From the NCBI RefSeq assembly GCF_004216665.1, contig NZ_SGWY01000001.1:496001-560000 (forward strand): a DNA stretch of 64,000 nt. Direction: 5' to 3'. The notes under the pieces were generated by a model. That model ran no database searches and was not told the origin of the DNA. It saw nothing but the letters and a program-made list of their open reading frames with translations. Of the stretch, positions 3,465-22,891 are shown piece by piece. A program made the position numbers and the translations under genes. Each line of letters starts with the position of its first letter. Position 1 is the first letter of the stretch. Origin of the DNA: Agromyces ramosus. Its GTDB lineage: Bacteria > Actinomycetota > Actinomycetes > Actinomycetales > Microbacteriaceae.

Positions 3465-3541
<77 letters not shown>

Positions 3542-3618: not shown

Positions 3619-4275
3619 TCACGGATGTCGCACGACCACGGCTTCCCCGAGCACGTGCACGACGGTCCACTCCGGCCCCTGCCCGCCCTCGGCCGCCGCG
3701 AGCTCGTCGGCGCCCACGCGAACCTCCCGCGGATCCCGTGCCAGCCCCGTCCCGTGCGCCTTCAGCACCGCCTCCTTGATCGTCCACGCCCGAGCGAGCG
3801 TCCGGCGTCGCACCGCGTCGGGCAGCGTCGCCGCGAAGGCCCGCTCGTCGTCGGCGCACATGCGGCGCACGAGTGACCGGCGACCGAAGGCCGCGAACGG
3901 CTCGTCCTCGACGTCGACGCCCACGAGCCCCTCGGCGGCGACCCCGACCAACAGGGTGCCGGCGCCGTGCGAGATGCTCACGTCGATGCCGCCCCCGCCG
4001 AGCAGGACCGGCTTGCGGTGCGTCGCGACGGTGGCGAATCCCGGCCACTCGACGCCGAGCCGGGCCGTGACGAGTTCCCTCACCCAGCGCCGGCCGACCC
4101 GGCGGCGCCGATGGAGCTCGGCGACGCGCACCTCGTGGGGACCGGCCGCGGCGACAGGTGGCGGGGCCGGATCCTCCGCCGCGCGCCAGTCCCCCCGGCG
4201 CCAGTGGACGCCCGTGTCGGTCACGCCCTCGACGGGCGGAGCCGGCGTCCGGGGTGGGGCGTCGACTCGGGTCAC
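3619..4275 (-). CDS. 4'-Phosphopantetheinyl transferase (Sfp type)
   Basis: Transfers phosphopantetheine from CoA to the serine of a carrier protein. The 218-aa protein carries the PPTase signature: an SISHG-like region near residue 101, GVDVE with D121 and E123, and WTIKEA with E168; these acids are the usual metal ligands. I chose the GTG at 4275 because it overlaps the stop of the acyl carrier protein gene (GTGA), as do all the other junctions of this cassette. A longer frame exists upstream but would run through the ACP gene. It is last in the five-gene operon and most simply activates the ACP just upstream. Confidence 0.88.
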   Translation of the reverse strand: MTRVDAPPRTPAPPVEGVTDTGVHWRRGDWRAAEDPAPPPVAAAGPHEVRVAELHRRRRVGRRWVRELVTARLGVEWPGFATVATHRKPVLLGGGGIDVSISHGAGTLLVGVAAEGLVGVDVEDEPFAAFGRRSLVRRMCADDERAFAATLPDAVRRRTLARAWTIKEAVLKAHGTGLARDPREVRVGADELAAAEGGQGPEWTVVHVLGEAVVVRHP

Positions 4276-4526
4276 GCCGCCGCCGCGAGCCGGCCGGCGA
4301 TGCCGTGGGCGAGCGACCTGATCGTCGGGTGGTCCCAGACGATCGTCGGGTCGACCTCGAGGTCGAACCGGTCCTCGATGTCGCCGCACAGCGTCAACGC
4401 GTACACGGAGTCGAGGCCGAGCTCGGCCAGCGGCGTCTCGGGGGTGAACGATCCGATGTCGACCTTTCCATAGGCCACGACGCGGCCCTCCAGCCAGGCC
4501 TCGATCGTCGATGCATCCGTGTTCAT
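4272..4526 (-). CDS. Acyl carrier protein
   Basis: An 84-aa carrier protein with the phosphopantetheine attachment motif LGLDS (Ser40) in a typical four-helix ACP pattern. The ATG overlaps the stop of the upstream dehydrogenase gene by 4 bases, and its own stop overlaps the PPTase start. It is probably loaded by the fatty acyl-AMP ligase of the same operon and holds the acyl chain while the dehydrogenase-like proteins act on it. It is distinct from a housekeeping AcpP, which would normally sit with fab genes; none are seen here. Confidence 0.92.
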   Translation of the reverse strand: MNTDASTIEAWLEGRVVAYGKVDIGSFTPETPLAELGLDSVYALTLCGDIEDRFDLEVDPTIVWDHPTIRSLAHGIAGRLAAAA

Positions 4527-6265
4527 CGGACGTCTCCTTCCTTCGGCGCGGGGTCGCGCGCGTCGTCTCGGGTCGAGATGGTCAAGCGGATGCCGCGATC
4601 GGTGCGGTCCACGGCGTAGGCGACGAGGCGCTCCACCAGCTCCGGCTCCAGGGAGCCGGCGCGACCGGCGAGCCGGTCCTCGACGCGACGGAGGCACGCC
4701 TCGCGGACGAGCGGATCCGCCGTGATCGGATCGCCCTCGCGCTCGGCGCACACGCCCGCGAACGCGCCCGCGGCGAGCAGGAGCGTGAGGCGATGCAGCG
4801 GCACGGCCCACTCGGCCGTGTCCGTCGACGGCTCGGGCGCCCGCGCCACGACGAGGTCGAGCTCGTCGCGGGCGGCGTCGAACGCGTCGGCGAGGCGGTC
4901 GAGCACCGCGAGGTGCTGGCCGTTCGTCCCGAGCGCTGCGCGAACCCCGGGATCGCGCAGCGCGGCGCCGAGCACGTCGCCCGGGCCGGCGTCGAGCCCG
5001 AGTCGATCGAACGCGAGGGGGCCGAGCGGCGCGCCGAGCCGGAACCACGCGCGGTCGGCGGCCGCGATGCCACGCGAGGAGTCGAGCCATCCGTCGAGTC
5101 CCGCCGCGATGGTGCGGAGGCAGGCGTCGGTGCCGTCGTGGCCGATCGACAGCACGGCCACGTCGCGGAGGAACTTCTCGAAGACGTCGTAGGGCTCCAC
5201 GCGTGCGTAGAACGTGGAGCCGAAGAGCACCGACAGGTCCTGCATCGCCGACGAGAGCAGCTGCGGCACCAGGTAGCCGCTCGCGGCCGTGGGGACGAGG
5301 CAGTCCTCTGGCGCGACGTGCAGGCCGCGCACCACCACCGAGCTGAACGCGTCCGCGAGGAGGAAGTCCGCGATCGCGCCCGCGAGGAGCGCGCGCGACT
5401 GCGGGAGGTCGAGCACGGAACCGCCGTAGAGCGACCGCTCGCCGGCGTACCGGACGGCGAGCTCGAGCGAGGAGTCCACGGTCGCGACGGCGAGCGCCGG
5501 GAGCACCGCCCGGGTCACCTGCGACGCGATGCGGGCGGTCGGCACTCCCGTGCCGGGCGGTCCGACCGTGCGGCCGACGGGCACGGGCAGCTCCCGGAAC
5601 TCGGCCGCGCCGAGGCGTCGCCCGCGCGTGCCGCCGGTGAGCACGCGGCGCGCGGTGTCGACGTGCGGGGCGGCGACGGCATCCCGGTCCCAGAGCAGGA
5701 GCGAGTGGCTGCGCGGCCCGGACCCGGAGCCGGTGCGGGCCAGGATGAGCATCGACTCGGCTCGATCGGCGTTGTCGACGACCTGCTTCACCCCGCTCAC
5801 CAGCCAGCGATCGCCGTCGAGCGCCGCGGTGCAGGCCACGTGCTCGAGGTCGCCGCGGTCGAGCTCGTCGAGGCCGGCCGCGATGCGCTCACCGCGCAGG
5901 AGGCGAGCCGCGACGGCCGCCTGCTGCGCGGGGTCGCCCGCGATCCAGACATGCGTCGCCGCCGTGAGCGTGGCGACACCGTGGCCGAGGCCCAGCGACG
6001 GATCGCGGCGGAAGACCGGGCGCCAGCGATGGACGAGCTCCTCCGTGGACACCCACCGGCCGCCGAGCGCTGCGGGCACGAAGTCGGCGGCCGCGCCCCA
6101 CTCGTCGAGCAGTGCCTCGGCGGCGGTGCTCACTCGGCGCGCCTCGTCGTCGGCCACGATCGACGCGTAGTCGAACGGACCCGTGGTGCGTGGGTCGCCG
6201 AAGCGCACCTCGAGGTCGTCGGGCTCGCGGACCCGCGGTTCGGCGTCGACGCGCGGCCGGCTCAC
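4523..6265 (-). CDS. Acyl-CoA dehydrogenase-like flavoprotein, second copy
   Basis: 580 aa, longer than a typical 380-aa acyl-CoA dehydrogenase; about 180 C-terminal residues are extra helical sequence. The core shows ACAD-like middle and C-terminal regions, including FLRDVAVLSIGHDGTD near residues 365-380. In classical family members the catalytic base is a Glu in the YEGT motif; here the aligned residue appears to be Asp377. The GTG start at 6265 overlaps the upstream stop (GTGA). Given the ACP and acyl-AMP ligase partners, the likely substrate is acyl-ACP rather than acyl-CoA. It may be active, or a non-catalytic partner of the first copy. Confidence 0.8.
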   Translation of the reverse strand: MSRPRVDAEPRVREPDDLEVRFGDPRTTGPFDYASIVADDEARRVSTAAEALLDEWGAAADFVPAALGGRWVSTEELVHRWRPVFRRDPSLGLGHGVATLTAATHVWIAGDPAQQAAVAARLLRGERIAAGLDELDRGDLEHVACTAALDGDRWLVSGVKQVVDNADRAESMLILARTGSGSGPRSHSLLLWDRDAVAAPHVDTARRVLTGGTRGRRLGAAEFRELPVPVGRTVGPPGTGVPTARIASQVTRAVLPALAVATVDSSLELAVRYAGERSLYGGSVLDLPQSRALLAGAIADFLLADAFSSVVVRGLHVAPEDCLVPTAASGYLVPQLLSSAMQDLSVLFGSTFYARVEPYDVFEKFLRDVAVLSIGHDGTDACLRTIAAGLDGWLDSSRGIAAADRAWFRLGAPLGPLAFDRLGLDAGPGDVLGAALRDPGVRAALGTNGQHLAVLDRLADAFDAARDELDLVVARAPEPSTDTAEWAVPLHRLTLLLAAGAFAGVCAEREGDPITADPLVREACLRRVEDRLAGRAGSLEPELVERLVAYAVDRTDRGIRLTISTRDDARDPAPKEGDVR

Positions 6266-7983
6266 GGCGCAGCCTCCCATCCCTCGAGCACCGAGAGCCG
6301 GCGACCGTCGCGGGTCGCCTCCAGGGCGAGGTCGCCGAGCAGCGAGGCCGACGCCGACGCCGACGCCGCATCCAGCACGCCGAGGCGCACCGCGATCCGG
6401 TCGAGCATGGCGCGCAGTCGGGCCTCGGATGCCGCGCCGGCGGCATCCGGCCCCCCGAGCTCGACCGCGATCGCGCACGAGGCGCCGAAGCAGAGCGCGA
6501 TGCGCTCGGCGAGCTCGAACGACCGGGCGCTCGGCATCGCCGCACGCGGCGCGCCGGCGGCGAGGTCCACCACCCGGTCGAGCTCCGACGCGATCCGCCG
6601 GGCGGGGCGGGCGGACTCGCGCGGCCCGAGCAGGTCGACGAGCCCGGGCAGGGCACGGAGCAGCCGGGACCCGCGACGGGTGACGAGCCGCAGCCGCCCG
6701 GGATCGAGCCATCCGTCGGGCGCCGCGTCGTGCCGCATGGACGCCACGACGAGCGAGGCGTCGACGGGGTCGTCGGGCCGCGCGATCGTGCCGAACTCGT
6801 TGACGATCATGTTCAGGTTCACCATCGAGTTGCCGTCGAAGATGCCGACCACGCGATTGTCGCGGGCCACCTTCTGGAAGCCTCCCGCGCCCGCGACGCC
6901 GAGCAGCTGCGAACGCTCGCCGAGGAACGGCGCGATCTCGCGCACGAGGAGGTCGACCGTGTTGGGAACGAGGAACTTGGCGAGCGAGCTCACGAGCGCC
7001 ATCTCGTGCGTGGCGTGGTGCATCTCGCGTGCCGCCGCGACCATGACCGCCTCGGCGAGGAGCCCGTCGGCGACGGCGGTGCCCAGCGTCGACCGGGTCG
7101 AGGGTCGGCGGGCGGGTGGGCCGCCGACGGCGGGCGAGGTCACCGCGAACTCGAGCGCGACCCCGATGGCGTGGTCGGCCGCCCCGACCGAGAGCGGCGT
7201 GGTCAGCGGGCGGGTGAGCTGCAGGCTCTTCAGCACCGTCTCGAGGCCGTGACCGGGCTCCCCCACGAGCATCTCCGGGTCGACGACCGCGCGGCGCATG
7301 GCGAGCCCGCTGATGTCGGCGCCGCGCGTGCCGTGCGTGGCGACCTTCGGCAGCGTCGTGAGCGTGGCCGCGTCCACGCGACGCTTGTCGACGAGCACGA
7401 GCGACAGCGATCTCGGGCCGGGCTGGTCGGAGCTGCGGGCGAGCACCGTCATCGCGCGTCCGCGCGTCGCGTTGTTGATGGGCCATTTCTCGCCGTCGAG
7501 CACGACGTGGCCGCCGATGCTCGCGGTGGTCGCCGTGTTCGAGAGGTCCGACCCTCTGCCCCGCTCCGTCAGCCCCCACGAGACCGGACCGCCGTCGAGC
7601 ACGAGCTCGGCCATGGTTCGGGCGATCGGGCCGCCCGTGATCCAGGCGCCGACCGCCCCGAGGAAGGTCACCCCGTGCGCCACCGCGACCGTGAGGTCGC
7701 GTCGCGCGATGCTCCGGATCATCAGCATCGGCACGAGGAAGTCGCGGAGCTCGCCGCCGTGGGCCTCGGGCACGTACCACCGCTGCAGCCCCAGCTCGTC
7801 CACCGCGGCGATCGCGTCCGCCGGGAACTCGCGGCGCTCGTCGAGGCCCACCGACCGGTCGACGGGAATGACGGATGCCGCATCGCGCGGATCCCCGAGG
7901 TGCCGCTCGAACTCGCGCACGACGCGTCGCGCCGCCCGAACCGTCGGGGCCTCGTCGAGCACGGCGTGGTCGGCGGTGCTCAC
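6262..7983 (-). CDS. Acyl-CoA dehydrogenase-like flavoprotein, first copy
   Basis: 573 aa. Clear ACAD features: the FAD/substrate region WGLTERGRGSDLSNT (about 136-150), NGxKW-like LDGEKWPINN (about 162-171), and a C-terminal ARDNRVVGIFDGNS motif (about 373-386) that aligns with the RDxRVxxIYEGT block of the family. The expected catalytic Glu is Asp383. An extended C-terminal helical region follows. The GTG start at 7983 overlaps the stop of the acyl-AMP ligase gene. In enduracidin and ramoplanin clusters, paired ACADs beside a FAAL and an ACP are thought to introduce double bonds into the acyl chain; the same role is inferred here. Confidence 0.85.
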   Translation of the reverse strand: MSTADHAVLDEAPTVRAARRVVREFERHLGDPRDAASVIPVDRSVGLDERREFPADAIAAVDELGLQRWYVPEAHGGELRDFLVPMLMIRSIARRDLTVAVAHGVTFLGAVGAWITGGPIARTMAELVLDGGPVSWGLTERGRGSDLSNTATTASIGGHVVLDGEKWPINNATRGRAMTVLARSSDQPGPRSLSLVLVDKRRVDAATLTTLPKVATHGTRGADISGLAMRRAVVDPEMLVGEPGHGLETVLKSLQLTRPLTTPLSVGAADHAIGVALEFAVTSPAVGGPPARRPSTRSTLGTAVADGLLAEAVMVAAAREMHHATHEMALVSSLAKFLVPNTVDLLVREIAPFLGERSQLLGVAGAGGFQKVARDNRVVGIFDGNSMVNLNMIVNEFGTIARPDDPVDASLVVASMRHDAAPDGWLDPGRLRLVTRRGSRLLRALPGLVDLLGPRESARPARRIASELDRVVDLAAGAPRAAMPSARSFELAERIALCFGASCAIAVELGGPDAAGAASEARLRAMLDRIAVRLGVLDAASASASASLLGDLALEATRDGRRLSVLEGWEAAP

Positions 7984-9710
7984 CGCGCGCCCGCCCGTTC
8001 GAAGCCGAGCGTGAGCACGGTCGCGAGTCGATCGTCGGCCAGGAGCGACCGGGTGAGGCTCCGCTGCACCTTGCCACTGGTGGTGCGCGGGAGCGTGCCC
8101 TTCCTGATCAGCGCGACGCCGAGCTCGGGGAGCTGGAACTCCTCCGCCACCGAGCGCCGCACGCGCTCGGCCAGGTCGCCGAGGTCGTCGGGCGAGACCC
8201 TCGCCGTGTCGACCTCGGCCACGAGCCCGACGAGGGGCTGCGCGACCGTGCCCTCGAAGGCGGCGCTCAGGCATCCGGAGTGCAGCAGCCCCGCCGCCAT
8301 GCCCTCGAGGTCCTGCGGGTACAGGTTGCGCCCGCGGATGATGATGAGGTCCTTGAGTCGTCCCGTGATCACGAGCTCCCCGTCGACGAGGACGCCGAGG
8401 TCGCCGGTCCGCAGGTATCGACGGCCGTCGGGATCACCCGGGATCGTGGCGGCGAAGGTCTCCGCCGTGGCGTCCGGCCGCTTCCAGTACCCCTGTGCGA
8501 CGCTCGGGCCGCGCACGAGGATCTCGCCGATCGAGCCCGCCGTCGCCCGCTCGCCCGACCGCGGGTCGACGATGACGACCTCGTGGCCGCCGGCCGGCGG
8601 ACCGCACGACACCAGCTCCACGGGTCGTCGGCCGATGGACGCCGGTACGAGCTCGCCGCGCTCGATCGCCGCCGAATCGGCCTCGACCGTCGAGACCGCT
8701 CCCTCGCGCACGCTCGCCGTGACGAGCAGGGTGGTCTCCGCCATGCCGTACGCGGGGATGAACGCCCGGGCCCGGAAGCCCGCCGGGCCGAATCGCCCGG
8801 CGAACGCCGCGAGCGTGTCGGCGCGCACCGGTTCGGCGCCCGTGATGACGCCCTCGAGCGACGACAGGTCGAGCTCGCCGACCTGTTCGTCGGTCACCAG
8901 CCTGGTGCAGAGGGCGTACGCGAAGTCGGGCCCGACGGTGTGCGTCGAGCGGTGCTGGGTGATCAGTCGGAGCCAGAGCAGCGGCCGCCGGAGGAACTGG
9001 CTCGGCGAGGTGAGCACGCTGTCGGCGGCCACCGACACCGGCTGCAGCAGCTGGCCGATCAGGCCCATGTCGTGGTAGTGCGGCAGCCACCCCATCGTCC
9101 GGGACTCGCCCGTGATCCCGACGGCTCCCGCGATGGCCGCCTCGTTGGCGACGAGGTTGCCGTGGCTCACCATGACGCCCTTCGGCACGCCGGTCGACCC
9201 TGAGGTGTACTGGAGGATCGCGAGCGAGTCCGGCGTGATGGGCGGTGCGGTCCAGTCGTCGACGACCCCCTCCAGGGCGGTGATCGGCACGAGGTCCGCG
9301 CCCGCGAGCGTGCCCGACGGCTCCAGGCCCAGCGACCGCAGCGCGGTGGGGTCGGCGAGGATGAGGCGACTCCCCGAATCGGCGATGATCGCCTCGAGGC
9401 GACGCAGTGCGACGTCGGGCTGCCGCGTCGCCGCGACGGGGACCGGGGCCGCCACGAGGCCGGCGTAGAACGTCGCGTACAGCGCCCGGATGAACTCGAG
9501 GCCCGGCTCGAAGGCCAGCACCGCGACCTCACCGGGAGCGTGGCCCAGCGCGGCCAGCGCCGCGGCATCCGCCCTGGCCTGCCGGTCCAGTCGCGCGTAG
9601 GAGGCGAACGCGGACTCCGTCGGGTTCGCGTAGAAGCGGAAGCCGCGCGCGTCTCCTGCGGCGACGGCCGCAGTCCGCATGGCGTCGAGGAAGGTGCTGT
9701 TCGCGGTCAC
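7980..9710 (-). CDS. Fatty acyl-AMP ligase (FAAL)
   Basis: 576-aa adenylate-forming enzyme that activates a fatty acid as acyl-AMP and passes it to a carrier protein. The AMP-binding motif YTSGSTGVPKG, the FAAL-typical GWLPHYHDMGLIG, the YGMAE and RTGDLG motifs and a C-terminal TTSGKVQR lysine region are all visible. The GTG start at 9710 has a good Shine-Dalgarno (GGAGGG, 7 bases upstream). It is first in the operon with two ACAD-like genes, ACP and PPTase. The length and motifs favour FAAL over acyl-CoA ligase; the presence of a dedicated ACP supports this. Confidence 0.92.
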   Translation of the reverse strand: MTANSTFLDAMRTAAVAAGDARGFRFYANPTESAFASYARLDRQARADAAALAALGHAPGEVAVLAFEPGLEFIRALYATFYAGLVAAPVPVAATRQPDVALRRLEAIIADSGSRLILADPTALRSLGLEPSGTLAGADLVPITALEGVVDDWTAPPITPDSLAILQYTSGSTGVPKGVMVSHGNLVANEAAIAGAVGITGESRTMGWLPHYHDMGLIGQLLQPVSVAADSVLTSPSQFLRRPLLWLRLITQHRSTHTVGPDFAYALCTRLVTDEQVGELDLSSLEGVITGAEPVRADTLAAFAGRFGPAGFRARAFIPAYGMAETTLLVTASVREGAVSTVEADSAAIERGELVPASIGRRPVELVSCGPPAGGHEVVIVDPRSGERATAGSIGEILVRGPSVAQGYWKRPDATAETFAATIPGDPDGRRYLRTGDLGVLVDGELVITGRLKDLIIIRGRNLYPQDLEGMAAGLLHSGCLSAAFEGTVAQPLVGLVAEVDTARVSPDDLGDLAERVRRSVAEEFQLPELGVALIRKGTLPRTTSGKVQRSLTRSLLADDRLATVLTLGFERAGAR

Positions 9711-10038
9711 GCCGGATCCCTCCGCTGGTCGGCAGGGCTCGGGGCGCCGACGCGCCCGTCCCCCCTTCGGTCCGGCGAGCCTACGGCCCGCAGTTGAACG
9801 GGGAGGGCGCGTGGTGTTGCGACCGTGTTACAAGTCCCTGCGTCCTACCCCCAACTCGGGGGCGGCGTTCGCGGTCGCCCCTGTTACCTCCCGGTAAACA
9901 ATCCCCCGCACGACGGCCCCGGCGTCCGGTCGCCGGATACGCTGGTCGGGCTGGCGACTCGGCCGACGGCGGACCCTCGGTGACGGCACACCGGCTCGGG
10001 GGCGCGGTCACCGAGGTCGGCGACCGGGGAGGGCGGAC
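9711..10038. promoter_or_regulatory. Divergent intergenic region between acyl cassette and polysaccharide genes
   Basis: 328 bases with no convincing gene. It must hold back-to-back promoters for the acyl-AMP ligase operon (minus) and the acyltransferase operon (plus). It contains GTTAC at 9827 and the imperfect dyad GTTACC-TCCC-GGTAAAC at 9883-9899, similar to GTTAAC elements upstream of other operons in this region. A CCCCC-AACT-style hairpin with CGGGGG lies near 9848-9862. I cannot place -10/-35 boxes with confidence. Confidence 0.45.
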
Positions 10039-10599
10039 GTGAACGGACTTGACCTGCTCCTGCTGATGCAGCGGGCACGCGACGCGGCCTTCTCGTGGAT
10101 CGCCGGTACGGGCTTCGCGCGCTTCGGTGCGCGGACGCGGATCCTGCTGCCGTTCCGGGTGGGGAACGCGGATCGCATCGCGATCGGCTCCGACGTGCTG
10201 ATCGGACCGGGCTCCTGGCTCATCGTGCCGCGCCTCGACGAGCCCGGCCCGGTGATCGTCATCGGCGATCGCGTCCGCATGAACGAGACCTCGATCTCCG
10301 CCGTGCACAGCGTCGTGATCGAGGACGGCGTGGCGATGGCGCGCGGCGTCTACATCTCCGACCACACGCACGGGTTCGACGCGCCGGACACGTTCATCAG
10401 GGACCAGCCGCTCGCCAGGGTCGCGCCGGTGCGGATCTGCCGGGGCGCGTGGCTCGGCCAGAACGCCGTGATCATGCCCGGCGTCACCATCGGCGCCGGC
10501 GCCGTGGTCGGCGCCAACTCGGTCGTCAGGGAGGACGTGCCGCCGCGCTGCGTCGTCGCGGGCGCTCCCGCCCGACTCATCCGGCAGCTGGCCGCATGA
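10039..10599 (+). CDS. Hexapeptide-repeat acyltransferase (WcaF/MaT-like)
   Basis: 186-aa left-handed beta-helix acyltransferase, probably transferring an acetyl or other short acyl group to a sugar. The C-terminal half shows repeated [LIV]GxxxxI/V hexapeptides, including the WLGQNAVIMPGVTIGAGAVVGANSVV region split over several turns, and the catalytic-type histidine in SDHTHGF. The GTG start has a purine-rich GGGGAGGG Shine-Dalgarno. The stop overlaps the ATG of the next glycosyltransferase. It likely decorates the polysaccharide repeat unit. Confidence 0.88.
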   Translation: MNGLDLLLLMQRARDAAFSWIAGTGFARFGARTRILLPFRVGNADRIAIGSDVLIGPGSWLIVPRLDEPGPVIVIGDRVRMNETSISAVHSVVIEDGVAMARGVYISDHTHGFDAPDTFIRDQPLARVAPVRICRGAWLGQNAVIMPGVTIGAGAVVGANSVVREDVPPRCVVAGAPARLIRQLAA

Positions 10600-11792
10600 C
10601 GGAGCAGACCGGCACCGGCTCGGTCCCGGCCCAGGTCGGGGCCGGTCCTCGCCGCGCCGCCGACTACGTCTTCACCTTCAGCTACGAGACGTACTCCGAC
10701 GCCGTGCGTCGCGGCATGATGCGCCCGCCCGACCGGATCCTCGCGAGCCTGATGCGGAGCCCGGAGGTGCGCCGCCTGCTCGTGGCGAACCCGTTCCGGT
10801 GGCTCCCCAGGGTCGCGGCGACGCCGCTGCTCGACCGCGACGCGCGGTTCCCCCCGAGTGGGCGGATGTCGCTGCATCGTCCCGTGCGGATGCGCCGCGA
10901 CGACCCCACCGACGTCGGCGCCCTCGACGCCGCTTACCGCGGCTACGACCGCTCCCTGCTCCGTGCCGCCCGCCGGCTCGAGCTGGTGCTGCCGTACGTG
11001 CTCACGACCAATCCCCTCGTCGCCGGATTCGCGCCGTTCGACTGGGCCTCCGAGGTGACGTTCTTCGCGCGTGACGACTGGTCGAGCTCCCCGGCGCGCG
11101 AGGCGTACTGGCCGGCGTATCGGGCGGCGTACCGCCGGATCTCGGAATCGGGACGGCCGGTCGCCGCCGTCTCCGAGGAGATCATCGATCGGATCGCCCC
11201 GACCGGCCCCAGCGCCGTCGTGCCGAACGGCGTCGAGCCGTCGGAGTGGCTCGGCCCGCCGCCGCCGGCCCCCGCCTGGCTCGACGCGATCCCGGGTCCA
11301 CGGGCGGTGTACGTCGGCACCCTGGACTCGCGTCTCGACGTGCCGGGGATCGTGGATCTCGCGATTCGCCGCCCCGACCTGCAGGTGGTGCTGCTCGGCC
11401 CGCTGCCCGACCCCGCGTACGTGGCCGAGCTCCGCCCGCTCCGCAACGTCCACCTGCACCCGAGCGTCGCTCGTGCCGAGCTCGTCGCGACGCTTCGCAA
11501 CGCCGACCTCTGCCTGCTCGCCCATCGCCGCACCCCGCTCACCGAGGCCATGAGCCCGCTGAAGATCTACGAGTACCTCGCGGCCGGGATCCCGGTCATC
11601 GCCACCGATCTGCCGCCCGTGCGGGGCATCGACGAACGGGTGCTGCTCGCCGACACCGTCGGCGAGTTCGCCGACGTCGTCCCGATGGCGCTCGCGCTCG
11701 ACCGCGCGGACGAACCGCGGCGCACCGCCTTCATCGAGGCGAACTCGTGGGCGGCGCGACACGAACGGGTCTTCGCCCTCGCACGATCGTGA
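10596..11792 (+). CDS. Glycosyltransferase (GT4-like, GT-B fold)
   Basis: 398 aa. The C-terminal nucleotide-sugar binding half is recognisable: AVYVGTLDSR, LLGPLPD, and the acidic motif in PLKIYEYLAAGIPVIAT, where Glu of the E-x7-type motif normally binds the donor. The N-terminal half is less conserved and begins YVFTFSYETYSDA. The ATG overlaps the upstream stop (ATGA). The donor and acceptor sugars cannot be deduced. Confidence 0.85.
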   Translation: MTEQTGTGSVPAQVGAGPRRAADYVFTFSYETYSDAVRRGMMRPPDRILASLMRSPEVRRLLVANPFRWLPRVAATPLLDRDARFPPSGRMSLHRPVRMRRDDPTDVGALDAAYRGYDRSLLRAARRLELVLPYVLTTNPLVAGFAPFDWASEVTFFARDDWSSSPAREAYWPAYRAAYRRISESGRPVAAVSEEIIDRIAPTGPSAVVPNGVEPSEWLGPPPPAPAWLDAIPGPRAVYVGTLDSRLDVPGIVDLAIRRPDLQVVLLGPLPDPAYVAELRPLRNVHLHPSVARAELVATLRNADLCLLAHRRTPLTEAMSPLKIYEYLAAGIPVIATDLPPVRGIDERVLLADTVGEFADVVPMALALDRADEPRRTAFIEANSWAARHERVFALARS

Positions 11793-12170: not shown

Positions 12171-13700
12171 TTGACCACTGAAGCAGACAGCAGGTCGATC
12201 GCGGGCTCACCCGCGGAGCGCCTGCTGGACCGCGCGGCATCGGTCGGGGCATCCGTCGGCCAGCGCGTGGCCTCGCAGCCGCGCAAGCTCGGTTGGCGCC
12301 ACCGGCTCGTGTTCGCCCTCACGGCGACGGATGCCGCGGTCATCGTCGTCGCGCTCCTCGTCGCGCAGTTCGTGCGATTCCGGACCACCGCGCTCGGTGC
12401 CGCGACGCCCCAGGCGGACGTCGCCTACCTGTCGCTCGGCGCGACCATCGCGGTCGTCTGGGTGGTCGCCCTCTCGGCGACGAGGTCCCGGCTGATCCGC
12501 AACATCGGCACGGGCACGGTCGAATACCAGCGCGTGGTGAACGCCACCCTGATCACCTTCGGGACGCTCGCCGTCGTGGCCTTCCTGCTGCAGCTCGAGA
12601 TCGCGCGCGGCTACCTCGCGGTGGCCCTGCCGCTCGGGCTCGCGCTGCTGCTCGCGGGCCGCGTCACCTGGCGCTACCTCCTGCACCGGATGCGTCGTGT
12701 CGGCCGCTGCACGACGGGGTCGATCATCGTCGGCCGGCCGGACGACGTCGCGCGCGTGGTCGACGAGCTCCGTCGGCAGTACCGCGTCGGCTACCGCGCG
12801 ATCGGCGCCACCTTCGCGGGATCGGCGCGGACCCGCCGGTCGCAGGAGATCGACCTGCCCACGGTGGACTTCGCCGACCTCGCCGCGACGTCGAAGCGCA
12901 CGAGGACGCGCGCGGTGATCGTCGCCGGCGACCTCCCCGGCGGGAGCGCCACCATCCGGCGGCTCGGGTGGGAGCTGGAGAACTCGAACACCGAGCTCAT
13001 CCTCGTGTCGCGCCTCACCGACGTGGCGGGTCCGCGCATCCACCTCCGGCCCATCAACGGCCTGCCGATGGTGCACGTCGACCTTCCCCAGTACTCGGGG
13101 TTCGGGCACGCGGTCAAGCGCAGCTTCGACATCGCGGTCGCGGCCGTGGCGCTGCTCCTGCTCGGCCCGATGATGGCGGTCATCGCCGTCGGGGTGCGCC
13201 TCTCCGGAGACGGGCCGGTGCTCTTCCGGCAGGAGCGCGTGGGCGCGCACGGCACTCGGTTCACGATGCTGAAGTTCCGGTCGATGGTCACCGACGCCGA
13301 GGCGCGACTCCTCGACCTGCAGGATCGCAACGAGGGCAGCGGCGTGCTGTTCAAGGTGCGGGACGATCCGAGGGTGACGCCGTTCGGACGCGCGCTCCGG
13401 CGGTATTCGCTCGACGAGCTCCCCCAGCTGTGGAACGTGCTCGCCGGCTCGATGAGCCTGGTCGGGCCGCGGCCGCCCCTTCCGGACGAGGTCGAGCGGT
13501 ACGAGGAGGACGTGAATCGCCGGCTCCTCACCAAGCCCGGCATCACCGGCCTCTGGCAGGTCAGCGGCCGGTCGGACCTCTCATGGGACGAGAGCGTGAA
13601 GATCGACCTCTACTACGTCGAGAACTGGTCGATCACGGGAGACCTGGTGATCCTCCTGAAGACCGTCAGGGCCGTGGTCGGGAGCCGCGGCGCCTACTGA
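12171..13700 (+). CDS. Polyprenyl-phosphate sugar-1-phosphate transferase (WbaP/CpsE type), first copy
   Basis: 509-aa initiating enzyme that attaches the first sugar phosphate to undecaprenyl phosphate at the membrane. The N-terminal half has four to five hydrophobic segments (within about 40-170) and a CoA-binding-like nucleotide region. The C-terminal bacterial sugar transferase domain follows, with KRSFDIAVA, FRQERVG, MLKFRSM, RRYSLDELPQLWNV, SLVGPRPP and PGITGLWQVSGRS. The TTG start at 12171 follows GGAGGGGG at suitable distance; further upstream in-frame starts lack this. A diverged paralogue lies at 36744. Confidence 0.92.
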   Translation: MTTEADSRSIAGSPAERLLDRAASVGASVGQRVASQPRKLGWRHRLVFALTATDAAVIVVALLVAQFVRFRTTALGAATPQADVAYLSLGATIAVVWVVALSATRSRLIRNIGTGTVEYQRVVNATLITFGTLAVVAFLLQLEIARGYLAVALPLGLALLLAGRVTWRYLLHRMRRVGRCTTGSIIVGRPDDVARVVDELRRQYRVGYRAIGATFAGSARTRRSQEIDLPTVDFADLAATSKRTRTRAVIVAGDLPGGSATIRRLGWELENSNTELILVSRLTDVAGPRIHLRPINGLPMVHVDLPQYSGFGHAVKRSFDIAVAAVALLLLGPMMAVIAVGVRLSGDGPVLFRQERVGAHGTRFTMLKFRSMVTDAEARLLDLQDRNEGSGVLFKVRDDPRVTPFGRALRRYSLDELPQLWNVLAGSMSLVGPRPPLPDEVERYEEDVNRRLLTKPGITGLWQVSGRSDLSWDESVKIDLYYVENWSITGDLVILLKTVRAVVGSRGAY

Positions 13701-13732: not shown

Positions 13733-14899
13733 ATGGCGGGTCTCATCGTGCAGGAGTGGATCGAGGAGTCGGGCGGGGCGGAGCAGGTGCTCGAGGCCAT
13801 GCGCGTCGCCTTCCCGGAGGCACGCGTCGCCTGCCTCTGGAACGACGATCCGGGACGGTTCGCGCCCGATGCCGTCGACGAGTCCTGGCTGGCCCGCACG
13901 CCGCTGCGCGGCCGCAAGGCGCTCGCCCTCCCGCTGATGTCCGGGACCTGGCGCCGGGGCTGGGGCTCCGCCCAGGCTCCCGACTGGGTGCTGGCGAGCA
14001 GCTACGTCTTCGCGCACCACGCCGGCTTCGGCACCCGCGCCGGCGTGCCGAAGTTCTCCTACGTCCACACGCCCGCGCGCTACCTCTGGGAGCCCGGGCT
14101 GGACGGCCGCACGGCCCTGCCGCTCATGGGTCCGCCCCGCGCCTGGCTGCGCGGCGTCGATCGACGGGCGGCGCCGCACTCGGGCTCGCTCGCCGCCAAC
14201 AGTGCGTTCGTGCGGGACCGGATCCGCCGCGCGTGGGACCGGGACGCGCGGGTCATCCACCCGCCGGTCGACGCGGCGGCGATCGCGGCGGTCGGCGCGT
14301 GGGCCGAGCGCACGACGTCCGCCGAGCAGGCGGTCCTGGCGGACCTGCCGGACCACGGATTCCTCCTGGCGGCCTCGCGCCTCGTCCCCTACAAGCGGCA
14401 TGCCGCGGTGCTCGACCTCGGTGAGCGGCTCGGCCTGCCCGTCGTGATCGCGGGCGCGGGTCCGGAGCGCGAGCGCCTCGCCGCCCTCGCCGCGGACGCG
14501 AGCGTGCCGGTGCACGTGCTCGGGCGCGTGTCCGACGAGCTCATGCGCGCCCTCTTCCAGCGTGCGCTCGCGCTCGTCTTCCCGCCCGTCGAGGACTTCG
14601 GGATCATCCCGGTCGAGGCGATGGCCGCCGGATGCCCCGTGATCGTCAACCGCGTCGGCGGCGCCGCCGAGTCCGTCGTCGACGGCCTGTCCGGCGTCCA
14701 CTACGACCCCGACGACCCAGCGGGCTTCCGCGCCGCCGTGGATGCCGCGAGCGGGATCGATCCCGACGCGGCCCGACGGCGTGCCCTCGAGTTCGACACG
14801 GCGAGGTTCCTCGACGAGCTGCGCGACTGGGTGCTCGGCGGCGACGATCAGGCCGTCGCCGGCACGCGGCCGAACAGCGTCGCCTCCGCGGCCGGGTAG
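13733..14899 (+). CDS. Glycosyltransferase family 4 protein
   Basis: 388 aa. GT4 signature in the C-terminal half: LLAASRLVPYKR (donor phosphate binding), VIAGAGPERERL, and FPPVEDFGIIPVEAMAAGCPVI, with Glu residues of the EX7E motif. ATG at 13733 follows GGAGGA by about 5 bases. It is 32 bases downstream of the sugar-1-phosphate transferase and probably forms an operon with it. Its last 52 bases overlap the end of the convergent gene at 14848. It resembles mannosyltransferases, but the specificity is not certain. Confidence 0.9.
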   Translation: MAGLIVQEWIEESGGAEQVLEAMRVAFPEARVACLWNDDPGRFAPDAVDESWLARTPLRGRKALALPLMSGTWRRGWGSAQAPDWVLASSYVFAHHAGFGTRAGVPKFSYVHTPARYLWEPGLDGRTALPLMGPPRAWLRGVDRRAAPHSGSLAANSAFVRDRIRRAWDRDARVIHPPVDAAAIAAVGAWAERTTSAEQAVLADLPDHGFLLAASRLVPYKRHAAVLDLGERLGLPVVIAGAGPERERLAALAADASVPVHVLGRVSDELMRALFQRALALVFPPVEDFGIIPVEAMAAGCPVIVNRVGGAAESVVDGLSGVHYDPDDPAGFRAAVDAASGIDPDAARRRALEFDTARFLDELRDWVLGGDDQAVAGTRPNSVASAAG

Positions 14900-15801
14900 C
14901 CCCGGCGCCAGTCCGCCCTGCGCCGCCACACGGTGCTCCACGGCGCGCGCGACCGGCGGGTGACGGTCTCCAGCGCGGCCCGGATCCCCACGCCCGCGAC
15001 GAGCAGGCGCACTCCGATCGCGGCGCGCACCGGCGTCCACGTCTTGCGCAGGTGCGTGACCTTGCCGGCCATCACCATGCACCCCTTCTCGCCGCCCGCG
15101 TCGCTCGAGCCCCCGACCTCGTGCACGATGACGGCATCGGGCACCACCACGCGACGCATGCCGGCGCGGCCCGCGCGCAGGCTGAACTCGGCGTCCTCGC
15201 CGTAGAGGAAGTAGTCCTCGTCCATGCCGCCGAGGCGTTCGAAGTCCGCACGGCGAACCAGCAGGAGGCATCCGGTGATGATCGGCACCTCCCGCACGGA
15301 GTCCCGGTTCCATGCGCCGAGGGACTCGGGATCGAAGAACGGCGAGCGCTTGAACGTCGTCGAGAGCATCGTGGCGAACATCGTGAGGGACCACAGGCTG
15401 GGGGCGCCCCAGCAGGAGCTCGGGTCGACGCTGCCGTCGGGCCGCAGGGTCCGCCCGCCGAACATCCCGAACTCCGGGTGCGCGGCCGCGAAGTCGAGCA
15501 GCGCTCGCAGGGAACCGGGGAGCACGATGGTGTCGGGGTTCAGCAGCAGGAGCCAGGTCCCGCTCGCGGCGCGCGCGCCGAGGTTCACGCCGCGGGCGAA
15601 GCCCAGGTTCTCCCCCGCCTCGATCGCCACGACTCCGGGGAACCCGGCACGGAACGCGGGAACGCTGCCGTCCGACGAGCCGTTGTCGACCACGATGAGC
15701 TCCAGGTCGACCGTGGCGGCGGTCTGGAGCACCGATCGCAGGCACGCGGCCGTGGCATCCCTCGTGTTGTAGTTCACGACCACCACGCTCAGTTCGGGCA
15801 C
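14848..15801 (-). CDS. Glycosyltransferase family 2 protein (rhamnosyltransferase-like)
   Basis: 317 aa, GT-A fold. Starts PELSVVVVNYNTRD, followed by VDNGSSDGS, LLLLNPDT (DxD-like position) and FLYGEDAEFSLR, all typical of the RfbF/WbbL-like GT2 group. A C-terminal basic segment may contact the membrane. I chose the GTG at 15801, directly before the conserved beta strand, with GGAAGGA about 8 bases upstream; a longer GTG start at 15852 adds 17 unconserved residues. The 3' end overlaps the opposing GT4 gene by 52 bases. Confidence 0.88.
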   Translation of the reverse strand: MPELSVVVVNYNTRDATAACLRSVLQTAATVDLELIVVDNGSSDGSVPAFRAGFPGVVAIEAGENLGFARGVNLGARAASGTWLLLLNPDTIVLPGSLRALLDFAAAHPEFGMFGGRTLRPDGSVDPSSCWGAPSLWSLTMFATMLSTTFKRSPFFDPESLGAWNRDSVREVPIITGCLLLVRRADFERLGGMDEDYFLYGEDAEFSLRAGRAGMRRVVVPDAVIVHEVGGSSDAGGEKGCMVMAGKVTHLRKTWTPVRAAIGVRLLVAGVGIRAALETVTRRSRAPWSTVWRRRADWRRGYPAAEATLFGRVPATA

Positions 15802-15854: not shown

Positions 15855-16787
15855 TCAGATGGTCACGGGCTCCAGGTCGTCACGGCGCGAGACCCGCCAC
15901 CGCGAGGCCTCGCGGAGATCGTCGTAGGTGATGTCGTCGGCCGGGCAGACGACGGCGAGCCCGCGTTCCGCGAGGAAGGCCGCGAGGTCGTCCTGATGCG
16001 AGTCGATGTGCTCCCCGTGGTCGACCGATCGCGCGGCGAGCACCGGCACCTTCCCGGCGCTGAGCGCCGCGAGCGCGGTCCCGGTCCCCGCGTGCCCGAT
16101 CACCACGTCGGCAGCGGTCAGCTCGGCGGAGAGGGTCGCCGACGGCACCGACGCGATCGCGTCGATGCCCAGGCCGCTGGCGTCCGTCGAGCCCGTCTGC
16201 CAGAGCACGCGGGTGTCGTCGGGGAGCGCGCGATGCGCGGACTCCACCAGCCGACGGAATCCGAAGTCGCCGTTCCCCCCGACGGTGACGACCGCGCGGG
16301 TGATCGGCCGCTCTCCCACGGGCTCGACCTTGAAGCCGTCGAACACCGAGAGGGCGTACCGCCACCGGCCCGAGGCCCGGGACGGGTACTGCACGTACCG
16401 GCGCACCGACGGGATGTGATCCACCAGCTTGCCCGTCGTGGAGAGGTCGGTGACGCGGGTGGCGCTCTCGACGTAGCTGAACGGCACGCGGTGCAGCAGC
16501 GCGGGGATGAGCGCGGAGAGCGCGATCTGCGCCCCCGAGCTGACCACGCGGTCGATCCGGTGCTCGGCGAACGCGCGCTGGGCCACCCGCGTGTCGCGGA
16601 GCACGCCCACCGCGTCCCGCGGCGGTCGCGTCGGCACGTGGTAGACGTGCTCGCCGTCGAGGAGCGAGCGGCTCTGCGCCGTGTCGTCGGTCATCCAGAC
16701 GACGTGGTCGCCGCCCGTGATGCGGGGAGCGAGCATGTGGAGTTGTGCGAGATGGCCTCCTGAGATGGCCACGAGCATCGTCGTCAT
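15855..16787 (-). CDS. Glycosyltransferase resembling fused Alg14/Alg13 (GT28 C-terminal type)
   Basis: 310 aa. The N-terminus MTTMLVAISGGHLAQLHML matches Alg14/PssD-type membrane-associated subunits, and the C-terminal part with VTVGGNGDFGF and DVVIGHAGTGTALAALSAGKVPVLAA matches the Alg13/PssE/MurG donor-binding domain. Family members add a sugar (GlcNAc, Glc or GlcA) to a polyprenyl-linked acceptor. The ATG at 16787 overlaps the stop of the SGNH lipoprotein gene (ATGA). Confidence 0.85.
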   Translation of the reverse strand: MTTMLVAISGGHLAQLHMLAPRITGGDHVVWMTDDTAQSRSLLDGEHVYHVPTRPPRDAVGVLRDTRVAQRAFAEHRIDRVVSSGAQIALSALIPALLHRVPFSYVESATRVTDLSTTGKLVDHIPSVRRYVQYPSRASGRWRYALSVFDGFKVEPVGERPITRAVVTVGGNGDFGFRRLVESAHRALPDDTRVLWQTGSTDASGLGIDAIASVPSATLSAELTAADVVIGHAGTGTALAALSAGKVPVLAARSVDHGEHIDSHQDDLAAFLAERGLAVVCPADDITYDDLREASRWRVSRRDDLEPVTI

Positions 16788-17659
16788 TCCGATCCCCCTT
16801 CGAGTGCACCCCACGCGATCTCGGCGATCGCGCGCTGTCCGGCGATCGACGGATGGAAGAAGTCGATCGCCGAGATCTCCTCGCCGCTGAAGTCGTAGGC
16901 GAAGACCGCACCGCCGTCGTCGATGCAGCGCTCCGCGGCGGCGCACACCCGCACGATGGCCGCGTTGAACTCGTCGACCCGTGCGGCCACCGCGTCGCGT
17001 CGTGCGTCGGCCTCGGCCGAGTCGTCATCGGCCGCACCGAGCAGGTTCGAGCACGACGGGCTGCTGTTCCACGCCTGCACGGCCTGCGGGTTCGTGCGGC
17101 CGATCTCCCAGAGGTGGTGGAGGTCGGGGATGGAGAGCACGAGGATCGTCGCATCGGGCGCCTCGACGTTCAGCCGCCCGAACAGGGCGGCGAGGCCCGC
17201 CTCGTAGTCGGCCGCCGGCGTCATCTCCTCGAGGCTCGGCGCGCACGCGTCATTGCCGCCGAGGAGCACCGTGACGAGCTGCGGCCGCGCCCGGATCACC
17301 TCGTCCGCGAGGCTGAGCGCCTCCCCGACGTCGCCGCCGTCCTTCGCGGCGTTGACGACCTCGGGTTCGGCCCCGGATGCCGCGGCGAGCCGCATCGCGA
17401 TCGATCCGACGGCCGGGTCCGACCCGCCCGCCCACGAGACCTCGGCGCACTGCCCCTGCTCGCCGCAGGCGTTCACCCCGAGCGACATCGAGTCGCCGAG
17501 GATTCCGAGGGCGGCCACCTCGGCCGCGGCGGCCGGCGGCTCGAGCTCGGTGAGATCGGGCTCGGCGGCCGACGAGGCCGCGCAACCGGCCAGCAGTCCC
17601 GTGACGACGAGTGCGATGAGCGCCCGGCCGCCCCGCCCGTGCATCGGTGCTCTCCTCAT
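16784..17659 (-). CDS. SGNH/GDSL-family hydrolase, lipoprotein
   Basis: 291 aa. A signal peptide ends in the lipobox LLAGC (Cys about 26), so the enzyme is predicted to be anchored outside the membrane. Catalytic blocks: GDSMSLG (Ser nucleophile), GGND (oxyanion Asn), and DFFHPS (Asp/His pair) near the C-terminus. SGNH enzymes usually remove or transfer ester-linked acyl groups, and placement inside the flippase/polymerase operon suggests it edits an acyl group on the polymer. Both ends overlap neighbours by 4 bases. A second Met at residue 6 is an alternative start. Confidence 0.88.
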   Translation of the reverse strand: MRRAPMHGRGGRALIALVVTGLLAGCAASSAAEPDLTELEPPAAAAEVAALGILGDSMSLGVNACGEQGQCAEVSWAGGSDPAVGSIAMRLAAASGAEPEVVNAAKDGGDVGEALSLADEVIRARPQLVTVLLGGNDACAPSLEEMTPAADYEAGLAALFGRLNVEAPDATILVLSIPDLHHLWEIGRTNPQAVQAWNSSPSCSNLLGAADDDSAEADARRDAVAARVDEFNAAIVRVCAAAERCIDDGGAVFAYDFSGEEISAIDFFHPSIAGQRAIAEIAWGALEGGSE

Positions 17660-19254
17660 GATTCCGCCTTCCGCTCTCGCATGACCGCCGCGTCGTCGCG
17701 GATGACCTCGTCGACCTCACCGGTGGCCGGCTCGGCCGACGCCTCCGATGCACCCGGCGTGGTGGCCGATTCGCCGGGTGCGGCCCGCGCCGGCTTCCGC
17801 ACCTGCTTCACGAAGCCGGCGATCTGCGCGAGATCGCGTCGATAGGCCGGGATCGCGAGGCACGCGAGGAACGGCACCGCGCCGGCCGCGACTCCGAGCG
17901 TCAGCTGCACGATCGCGGGAAGTCCGTCGGTGGCGCGCTGGACCGCGGCGGCGGCGGCGTAGCAGAGCGGCGCCAGGATGAGCGGCCGGAGGATCGGCAT
18001 CAGGATGTCGCGCACCCGCATGAAGGTGCCGGAGGTCGCGTAGTAGAGCTCCGGCACGAGGAGCGCCAGCGAGAGGAGCCCGAACACCAGCGCGAGCCCC
18101 TCCGTGCCGGCCCACCAGATGCCGAGGAAGTAGCCGGCGATGAGCAGCGGACGCGTCACGACGAAGAAGACGAGCTGCCGGTGCGCGCGCCCGAGCGTGA
18201 TGTAGAGCCATCCGAGGACGCTGCCGATCGACTGCGCGACGCCGGCGATCGCCAGGATGCTGAAGATGGTCGCCGCCTCCTGCCAGCCGGGTCCGAGCAG
18301 GATCGCGATGAGCGGTGCGGCGACCGCCGCCGCCACCGCGTACACGGGGATGGTGAGGTAGCCGATGATCATGAGCGCCCCGCGCGTGTACCGCCGATAG
18401 CGCTCGGGATCGTCCTGCAGCTTGCTCAGCACGGGCAGGGCGACCCTGCCGAGGGTGCCGTTCAGCTGCTGCATCGGCAGCAGGTAGAGCGCGTATGCCC
18501 GCGAGTACTGTCCGAGCGCCGCGGGCCCGAGCTGCTGGCCGATCACCACGTTGTCGAGGTTCTTCGTCGCGTAGTTCAGCAGCTGGACGCCGAAGATGCT
18601 GCCGCCCGTCGTCACGAGCGGGAGCACCTCGCGTGAGATGTGCGGCCGTCCGAAGCGGGGCCGGGTCCCCACCCACAGCGCGACGAGTCGGTAGACCTGG
18701 CCCGACCCCGACATCACGACGAGCGACCACACCCCCCAGCCCAGCGCGGCGGTGGTGATGCCGAGGCCGACGCCGACCAGCATCGACACGACGTCGATGC
18801 CCGCGAGCGTCCCGAACCGGAGATCGCGCTGCACGCGCGCCTGCATCGGCATCGTGAGGCCGTTGATGAGGAGGATCGGCGCGATCGCGAGCGTGAGCGG
18901 TATGAGCCGTTCCTCGTCGTAGAGCAGGGCGATGAGCGGGGCCGACGCCGCGATGAGCAGCATCAGGCCGATCCCGAGCGCGACCGAGAGCCACATCACG
19001 CTCATCCACATGCGATCGCTGAGCTTCCTGGACTGGATGATCGCACCGGTGAGCCCGAAGTCGCGCACGAGGTCGGCGACGCCGACGATCGCGGTGACCA
19101 TCGCCACGAGACCGAAGTCGGCGGGTGAGAGCAACCGGGCCAGCACGACGGTCGAGGCCAGCTGGATGAGCGTCTTGCCGCCGAACCCGCCCATGGTCAC
19201 GAACACCCCACGCGACGACGTGTGTGCGAGCCGGTCGGTCGGCGGCGCGCTCAT
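17656..19254 (-). CDS. Wzx-type flippase (lipopolysaccharide/polysaccharide exporter, MOP superfamily)
   Basis: 532-aa protein with about 12-14 hydrophobic segments over residues 15-480 and a hydrophilic C-terminal tail rich in Ala/Glu. The N-terminal GGFGGKTLIQLASTVVLARLLSPADFG is characteristic of WzxC/RfbX-type exporters, which flip lipid-linked repeat units. The ATG at 19254 overlaps the GT2 stop, and the stop overlaps the SGNH gene start. It lies in the same chain of coupled genes as the polymerase. Confidence 0.92.
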   Translation of the reverse strand: MSAPPTDRLAHTSSRGVFVTMGGFGGKTLIQLASTVVLARLLSPADFGLVAMVTAIVGVADLVRDFGLTGAIIQSRKLSDRMWMSVMWLSVALGIGLMLLIAASAPLIALLYDEERLIPLTLAIAPILLINGLTMPMQARVQRDLRFGTLAGIDVVSMLVGVGLGITTAALGWGVWSLVVMSGSGQVYRLVALWVGTRPRFGRPHISREVLPLVTTGGSIFGVQLLNYATKNLDNVVIGQQLGPAALGQYSRAYALYLLPMQQLNGTLGRVALPVLSKLQDDPERYRRYTRGALMIIGYLTIPVYAVAAAVAAPLIAILLGPGWQEAATIFSILAIAGVAQSIGSVLGWLYITLGRAHRQLVFFVVTRPLLIAGYFLGIWWAGTEGLALVFGLLSLALLVPELYYATSGTFMRVRDILMPILRPLILAPLCYAAAAAVQRATDGLPAIVQLTLGVAAGAVPFLACLAIPAYRRDLAQIAGFVKQVRKPARAAPGESATTPGASEASAEPATGEVDEVIRDDAAVMRERKAES

Positions 19255-21745: not shown

Positions 21746-21753
21746 GTGGTCGC

Positions 21754-22802: not shown

Positions 22803-22891
22803 TCTGCGCGTCAACACGTCGACGTGCGTTGTGCACCCGAAGGTCCGCCCCGAAGGTTGGAAGGACACATCTCTGCGTCACGGGGGTCCAC

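Follow-up and report, generated by a model that had tools for sequence, protein, structure and literature searches.

A fatty acyl-AMP ligase cassette with paired acyl-CoA dehydrogenase homologues beside a Wzx/Wzy polysaccharide cluster in Agromyces: a proposed acyl-donor module

The DNA analysed here, referred to as the window, is a stretch of 64,000 nucleotides of the Agromyces ramosus genome (G000:C1:496001-560000; genome of 3.84 Mb, 99.98% complete), and the system in question is a cassette of five genes on its minus strand, encoding a fatty acyl-AMP ligase (FAAL), two acyl-CoA dehydrogenase homologues (ACAD1 and ACAD2), a free-standing acyl carrier protein (ACP) and a phosphopantetheinyl transferase (PPTase). 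The cassette adjoins a cluster of polysaccharide genes, and on balance we favour its being an acyl-donor module for that adjacent Wzx/Wzy pathway, a proposal that draws on the observed gene order, conservation, lack of condensation domains, co-occurrence, divergence, catalytic-residue pattern and predicted fold. Consecutive genes overlap by exactly 4 bases at each of the four junctions (GTGA at 7980-7983, GTGA at 6262-6265, ATGA at 4523-4526 and GTGA at 4272-4275, from the FAAL towards the PPTase), every one of them placed correctly by an earlier, sequence-only reading of this DNA. A possible 4-base overlap, in the same gene order, is found at 28 of 28 junctions across the seven cassette-bearing Agromyces, the window's genome included, and the overlaps are thus not a matter of chance; the count leaves out M. 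allomyrinae, and the gene starts, like the Microbacterium ACAD2 lengths given below, are our own gene calls.

The product of the first gene is assigned to the FAAL family, being closest to FAAL models and structures. Its best NCBIfam scores are 450 bits to a model of multidomain non-ribosomal peptide synthetases and polyketide synthases (NRPS and PKS) and 365 to PRK09192 (fatty acyl-AMP ligase), followed by 336 to PRK07768 (long-chain-fatty-acid--CoA ligase) and 178 to PRK06187, with the curated cut-off reached by none; among solved structures the fatty acyl-adenylate ligase 3pbk gives 255 bits (E 1.7e-74) and the acyl-CoA ligase 3g7s gives 96, and FadD23, FadD32 and FadD28 are also among the solved relatives. 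An insertion specific to FAALs is a hallmark of the family; residues 6-565 align with short gaps only to 7r7e, deposited as a polyketide synthase, which we take to be a FAAL domain. The ACP carries GLDS, presumably the expected motif, at its predicted attachment site, and in six Agromyces relatives its identity is 76-81%, that of the FAAL and ACADs being 58-73%. The PPTase also matches the HetI-like model NF042922 at 42 bits, under that model's cut-off, and is one of three PF01648 matches genome-wide.

On the FAAL side of the cassette an initiating transferase, a Wzx and a Wzy occur together (PF02397, PF13440 and PF04932; Table 1), which identifies the neighbours as a Wzx/Wzy-dependent polysaccharide cluster, as the sequence-only reading had held. 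Within it, about 15 kb from the cassette, lies a gene for a protein resembling wax ester synthase/diacylglycerol acyltransferases (WS/DGAT), and its structural model matches solved WS/DGAT and PapA5, so that family and fold agree. Both histidines and the aspartate of HHxxxDG, the motif of the family, are kept in this protein and the final glycine is an alanine; its identity to the solved WS/DGAT structures 6chj and 7nxg is only 16-19%. The place of the gene among glycosyltransferases suggests a sugar acceptor.

Table 1. Features of the cassette and of the adjoining polysaccharide cluster, in window coordinates.
Feature	Position	Strand	Basis and remarks
PPTase	3619..4275	-	PF01648 (ACPS) 53 bits
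Free-standing ACP	4272..4526	-	PF00550 (PP-binding) 51 bits
ACAD2, acyl-CoA dehydrogenase homologue	4523..6265	-	weak Acyl-CoA_dh, 1 of 3 domains over cut-off
ACAD1, acyl-CoA dehydrogenase homologue	6262..7983	-	PF02770, PF00441 and PF02771 over cut-offs
FAAL (first gene of the cassette)	7980..9710	-	PF00501 (AMP-binding) 213 bits
LbH1, hexapeptide acetyltransferase	10039..10599	+	PF00132
GTa, glycosyltransferase	10596..11792	+	PF13692
Initiating bacterial sugar transferase	12267..13700	+	PF02397 231 bits
GT4b, GT4-type glycosyltransferase	13733..14899	+	PF00534
GT2c, GT2 glycosyltransferase	14848..15801	-	PF00535
GT28C-like glycosyltransferase	15855..16787	-	PF04101 32.7 bits
SGNH/GDSL hydrolase	16784..17644	-	PF13472 54.8 bits; lipobox-like LAGC read by eye
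Wzx-type flippase	17656..19206	-	PF13440 257 bits
GT2d, GT2 glycosyltransferase	19251..20099	-	PF00535
Wzy-type polymerase	20108..21745	-	PF04932 40 bits
Wzz-like chain-length protein	21754..22620	-	no Pfam match; named from place (conserved) and membrane segment
GT4e, glycosyltransferase	22892..24115	+	PF13692
GT2f, GT2 glycosyltransferase	24099..25037	+	PF00535; directly before the WS/DGAT-like gene
WS/DGAT-like acyltransferase	25034..26344	+	PF03007 over cut-off; motif HHVIGDA
LbH2, hexapeptide acetyltransferase	26350..26958	+	PF00132
GT4g, glycosyltransferase	26955..28064	+	PF13692

Among 60 Agromyces genomes, a close relative of ACAD2 (E <= 1e-185) is present in seven, one of them the window's; the remaining 53 have no match better than 3e-14. 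All seven have the five cassette genes in the same order, and in all seven the cassette stands between a phosphoesterase and penicillin-binding protein (PBP) pair past the PPTase, both named from reading the sequence, and one conserved polysaccharide cluster containing Wzx, Wzy, the initiating transferase, glycosyltransferases, the SGNH protein and the WS/DGAT-like gene. The window-type Wzy occurs in 10 of the 60 genomes and the window-type WS/DGAT in the same ten, namely the seven with the cassette and G028, G046 and G036; the cassette is thus found in 7 of 10 WS/DGAT-bearing genomes and in 0 of the 50 others (Fisher 3e-7, uncorrected for kinship). A cassette-like FAAL gave one weak match in G028 (7.5e-27) and none at 1e-20 in G046. 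The PPTase flank of the cassette in the window also carries a tRNA-Pro gene at 3465-3541. At the FAAL flank (window 9711-10038), a polysaccharide-pyruvyl-transferase-like gene, named by eye, is found in six of the seven Agromyces cassette clusters; the window genome is without it at that place, and we rejected it as a required partner.

Beyond Agromyces, a pattern scan built on an ACAD1 alignment and run against a collection of one genome per species (84,980 species) returned 47 loci, which are not a full census, the scan having used two short ACAD1 patterns, one of them FDGNS, and so having favoured that motif. FAAL, ACAD1, ACAD2 and ACP lie in order at 36 of the 47 by tblastn. In four Microbacterium loci (L092-L095) the same polysaccharide genes stand beside the FAAL, with Wzy in all four, Wzx in two (the stretches of the other two end first) and a WS/DGAT of 58-59% identity about 14 kb from the FAAL; the outer flank of the cassette differs, being a UDP-sugar dehydrogenase gene in Microbacterium versus the PBP and phosphoesterase in Agromyces. 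Six further loci with FAAL identity of at least 48% (L096, L097, L099, L100, L109 and that of G277) are without polysaccharide genes in the stretch read, and in three of these the WS/DGAT gene and the cassette are neighbours: the gene comes immediately after the PPTase in L097 and L099 (Microbacteriaceae VKM Ac-2854 and VKM Ac-2855), overlapping it by 4 bases in VKM Ac-2855 (G384), and stands divergently beside the FAAL in L100 (M. allomyrinae). A condensation domain was found in the fetched stretches of at least 11 of the 47 loci and a ketosynthase in 2 more, the former a lower bound, since L101 was missed and L115, L119 and L135 have adenylation-type open reading frames (ORFs) without a condensation match. 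It is clear that the cassette is not special to polysaccharides, its relatives sitting with NRPS, PKS, KASIII/ATP-grasp and other genes. The co-occurrence with Wzx/Wzy and WS/DGAT genes that the sequence-only reading asked for is thus seen in seven Agromyces and four Microbacterium, alongside the condensation-domain loci that it had set as the opposite outcome.

These other settings are varied. In Solihabitans fulvus a free-standing condensation-domain protein (L101, 6839-8206) directly precedes the FAAL. A second AMP-binding ligase follows the cassette in Cellulomonas (L096, 14382-18383), Sphaerimonospora (L109, 13026-16052) and, as read by eye, the Microbacteriaceae genome G277 (L070, 3192-6958); L096 and, again by eye, G277 also have genes for a TetR-type regulator and for a protein resembling a nucleosidase or deoxyribosyltransferase. 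In Actinomadura logoneensis (L103, 13679-17342) FAAL-ACAD-ACAD-ACP is followed by KASIII-like, ATP-grasp and ornithine/DAP-type decarboxylase genes, with no condensation match in the stretch. A distant ACAD pair and PPTase in G314 (L071 and L072, joined, 17557-36720) lie beside a 2281-aa ORF with a ketosynthase-like start, a 2102-aa ORF and a PfaD-like protein, a setting like that of a polyunsaturated fatty acid synthase, with names read by eye.

The two dehydrogenase homologues are not equivalent. In classical ACADs the glutamate of YEGT is a catalytic residue; in ACAD1 it is Asp383 that stands at this position, FDGN aligning with YEGT of 3pfd, and the window copy and all 45 other scored proteins have Asp there (one further row gapped, and no ACAD1 obtained from L136), although the search pattern FDGNS itself is present in only 16 of the 45 and absent in 29. 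ACAD2 is non-acidic there in 37 of 37 other scored copies (Ala 21, Ile 13, Gly 1, Pro 1, Cys 1), five rows gapped at the position having been left out and five loci having given no ACAD2. The window's ACAD2, of which the AlphaFold 2 model has an ACAD fold, is the sole acidic copy in the alignment (Asp at residue 377, HDGT aligned to YEGT); its Agromyces relatives have Ala or Gly at this place. In four Microbacterium ACAD2 is short, 356-380 aa, and in the one that was scanned only the C-terminal ACAD domain matched. We predict that ACAD1 is the catalytic acyl-ACP dehydrogenase subunit and ACAD2 a non-catalytic partner, and, because the catalytic acid is missing in the 37 other ACAD2 copies, that the two probably form one heteromeric enzyme with one catalytic subunit that introduces one double bond. 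That the pair are instead two dehydrogenases acting in sequence to give a dienoyl chain seems improbable: the Asp of the window's ACAD2 speaks for it, as does a second dehydrogenation considered for rotihibin (PMC8552735), and the uniformly non-acidic position elsewhere and the missing domains of the scanned Microbacterium copy speak against it. Of the mass loss of 2 or 4 Da envisaged by the sequence-only reading, a single catalytic subunit leads us to expect the former and not the latter. The rotihibin paper assigns one ACAD to the first double bond and regards the second dehydrogenation as possibly not essential, which differs from our heteromer (PMC8552735). The residue pattern predicts that paired ACADs, those of lipopeptide loci included, are one enzyme with one active subunit.

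The surroundings of the WS/DGAT gene in the family place the cassette in a wider context. A WS/DGAT profile matched 21 of 396 Microbacteriaceae genomes, and the surroundings were covered for 20 of them, 15 newly read and the others being G000, G004, G054, G036 and G384, with G368 left out. In fourteen of the 15 newly read genomes the polysaccharide cluster is present, its WS/DGAT has diverged (and is in two pieces in G413), and the stretch read contains neither a FAAL nor an ACAD; for ten of the 15 that stretch was about 20 kb, too short to show a more distant cassette, but an ACAD2 search that matched 7 of 398 genomes at E <= 1e-30 returned none of these (their membership of that sample being inferred). 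Two clusters hold a FAAL set of another kind, without ACADs: in G431 a FAAL-ACP-PPTase set and two WS/DGAT genes lie inside the cluster, and in the Agromyces genome G036 three FAALs, an ACP, a PPTase and a WS/DGAT. The tandem WS/DGATs of G431 (L216, 9226-11809) and the tandem FAALs of G036 hint at more than one acyl chain. The clusters can be classified into type A with the full cassette (11), type B, cassette-free (18: the fourteen newly read, those of G028 and G046, and one second WS/DGAT locus in each VKM strain), and type C with FAAL-ACP (2).

How closely each gene follows the cassette was expressed as a difference, namely by how many points of mean identity Agromyces type A is closer to Microbacterium type A than to type B (up to 18 clusters, a number that is lower for some genes), where the FAAL entries for G028 and G046 are an acetyl-CoA-synthetase-like neighbour and not a FAAL. 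With up to 18 type B clusters the difference is 26.4 points for GT28C, 19.2 for WS/DGAT and 15.2 for SGNH, with the other 11 genes between -2.1 and 9.0; with four type B clusters it is 26.9, 15.1 and 15.1, and -6.1 to 6.3 for the others. GT28C is the sole gene to reach a robust z of 3 (3.0 by identity, 4.5 by distance); the distance-ratio z of WS/DGAT and SGNH is 2.0 and 2.2 with four type B clusters and 1.7 and 0.9 with up to 18. We therefore do not regard co-divergence as proof, GT28C being the only clear outlier and WS/DGAT and SGNH merely the next two of 14 genes. GT4b is present in 11 of 11 type A clusters, 0 of 18 type B and 0 of 2 type C (the G044 copy was found by tblastn at L090).

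Taking these observations together, we infer every reaction, the acceptor and the position of the double bond (by analogy to rotihibin) as follows. The PPTase would arm the ACP, and the FAAL would adenylate a free fatty acid and load it onto the ACP, where ACAD1, joined in one heteromer by an ACAD2 that is probably non-catalytic, would take two hydrogens to leave a 2-enoyl-ACP. The WS/DGAT-like protein would then transfer the chain in the cytosol to a hydroxyl of the lipid-linked repeat unit, probably on a branch built by the GT28C and GT4b glycosyltransferases, and Wzx and Wzy would export and polymerise the acylated unit; the SGNH protein, a possible acyl-editing enzyme by family, may cut back the acylation on the outside. 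For the acceptor side the WS/DGAT-like protein is the most likely enzyme, since its gene lies directly beside the cassette in three of the six loci without polysaccharide genes and since the clusters of G036 and G431 contain FAAL-ACP-PPTase-WS/DGAT sets without ACADs. The cassette itself looks like an exchangeable acyl-donor module, given the 18 related clusters that have a diverged WS/DGAT and no cassette. In its broadest form, to which we would give slightly less than even chances, the proposal is that a Wzx/Wzy polysaccharide that many Microbacteriaceae have in common carries a fatty ester placed by WS/DGAT, with donors that can be exchanged (others in type B, a FAAL without ACADs in type C, the 2-enoyl chain in type A), a lipopeptide priming module having been re-used for the lipidation of a surface polymer.

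Several observations weigh against an acyl-donor role in the polysaccharide pathway. The seven cassette-bearing Agromyces may be one lineage. G277, L096 and L109 carry FAAL-ACAD-ACAD-ACP with no polysaccharide genes in the stretches read, and the L096 genome gave no WS/DGAT match at E <= 0.001. The 18 clusters with a WS/DGAT homologue and no cassette in the stretch read mean that WS/DGAT does not need the cassette and must use another donor there. In VKM Ac-2854 and -2855 the cassette and a second WS/DGAT are on a contig other than that of the type B cluster, and this cassette-side copy may acylate something else. The z of WS/DGAT is only 1.9 by identity and 1.7 by distance, and that of SGNH 1.3 and 0.9 (up to 18 type B clusters); type A clusters form a clade for most other genes too, so that ancestry alone accounts for part of the divergence.

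An alternative view is that the product of the cassette is a small acyl compound of its own, such as a free enoyl ester or a glycolipid, made through WS/DGAT or another partner, and that the neighbourhood was merely inherited. We consider this unlikely, though it is the most serious competitor: the cassette and WS/DGAT do occur without polysaccharide genes in L097, L099 and L100, and relatives occupy other non-NRPS settings, with the second AMP-binding ligase or with KASIII/ATP-grasp genes, but the adjacency is kept in two genera despite different outer flanks, the WS/DGAT gene lies inside the polysaccharide gene order, in cassette-free clusters too, and a FAAL-ACP-WS/DGAT set of another kind is found inside the clusters of G036 and G431. 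A transfer of the ACP-bound chain to one of the hexapeptide (LpxA-like) enzymes, LbH1 or LbH2, and not to WS/DGAT, is quite improbable. LbH1 adjoins the FAAL in the window, divergently oriented, and LpxA/LpxD-type enzymes do use acyl-ACP; against this, LbH1 and LbH2 of Agromyces are about equally similar to the cassette-free and to the Microbacterium cassette clusters, so that they do not track the cassette (differences of -2.1 and 3.9 points), and in L097, L099 and L100 no copy of either was found next to the cassette. The sequence-only reading had named sugar acyltransferases as the acceptor side; we find the WS/DGAT-like gene the likely one and the case for the hexapeptide enzymes weakened.

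That the ACP supplies an NRPS or PKS elsewhere in the genome finds support in the condensation-domain and ketosynthase loci among the 47 and in the precedent of rotihibin (PMC8552735). The genome argues strongly against it, and we reject such a partner as extremely improbable: the condensation domain PF00668 has 0 matches in the whole 3.84 Mb, and the ketosynthase PF00109 has a single full-length match, to a frame of 435 aa, besides four that are short and partial, so that no type I PKS is evident from these profile matches. The cassette itself has no PKS gene, and the AMP-binding gene lying just outside the window on its left encodes an acetyl-CoA synthetase (PF16177). The lack of NRPS and PKS genes claimed by the sequence-only reading is therefore borne out, and neither of the findings that it named as fatal, an NRPS just outside the window or homologues always sitting with NRPS/PKS genes, is seen. 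Its route to an acylated glycan is likewise our best reading, two genera having kept the cassette next to a single kind of Wzx/Wzy cluster, with the reservation made above that the cassette is not polysaccharide-specific.

The supply side of the proposed system is of a known kind, and what sets it apart is its use beside a WS/DGAT gene and a Wzx/Wzy cluster. The gene sets for ramoplanin and enduracidin reportedly comprise a FAAL, an ACP and paired ACADs and lead to NRPS products. Both are named, and the paired ACADs of ramoplanin mentioned, in PMC8552735; we liken them to the cassette by gene content alone, their products being those of an NRPS. The same source describes the rotihibin starter set RthH-RthI-RthJ-RthK as FAAL, ACAD, ACAD and ACP, with the loading and dehydrogenation of a fatty acid as its proposed task and the ACP proposed to hand a 2-decenoyl chain to the NRPS (PMC8552735). 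Gene kinds and order, FAAL-ACAD-ACAD-ACP, are those of our cassette; unlike rotihibin, the locus described here has no NRPS, has the PPTase in the operon and has as partner a WS/DGAT-like acyltransferase in a polysaccharide cluster. For mycobacterial di- and polyacyltrehalose, PMC4183827 describes FadD21, Pks3/4 and PapA3 as acylating trehalose. There too a carrier-bound chain begins with a FAAL and is esterified to a sugar by an acyltransferase at the cytosolic face, ahead of export, but with PKS extension and trehalose, in place of the free ACP, the dehydrogenases and the predicted Wzx/Wzy repeat unit of the present case (PMC4183827).

No report of a FAAL joined with a Wzx/Wzy polysaccharide was found in the open-access literature searched, most subscription papers and preprints being outside its scope, and in the main text of a FAAL review from 2025 a search for the terms 'polysaccharide' and 'sugar' found neither (PMC11837247). 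The sequence-only reading did not know of the route as a described system, which holds within that literature for the polysaccharide destination and fails for the order of the supply genes, known from rotihibin (PMC8552735). If the proposal is true, FAAL/ACP chemistry would reach beyond NRPS and PKS products to a glycan polymer, and a likely acyltransferase would be named for lipidated actinobacterial polysaccharides.

Two further features of the surroundings may be recorded. A protein of about 546-576 aa adjoins GT4g in G004, G008, G043, G054, G048, G028 and G046 (L043, 10561-12201, and relatives); the one copy scanned, that of G048, has Ig-like domains, and the window genome and G044 are without the protein at that place. 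Further along the window, the presence of a DUF4012 protein together with another initiating sugar transferase (34868-38177) suggests that a second glycan cluster is close by.

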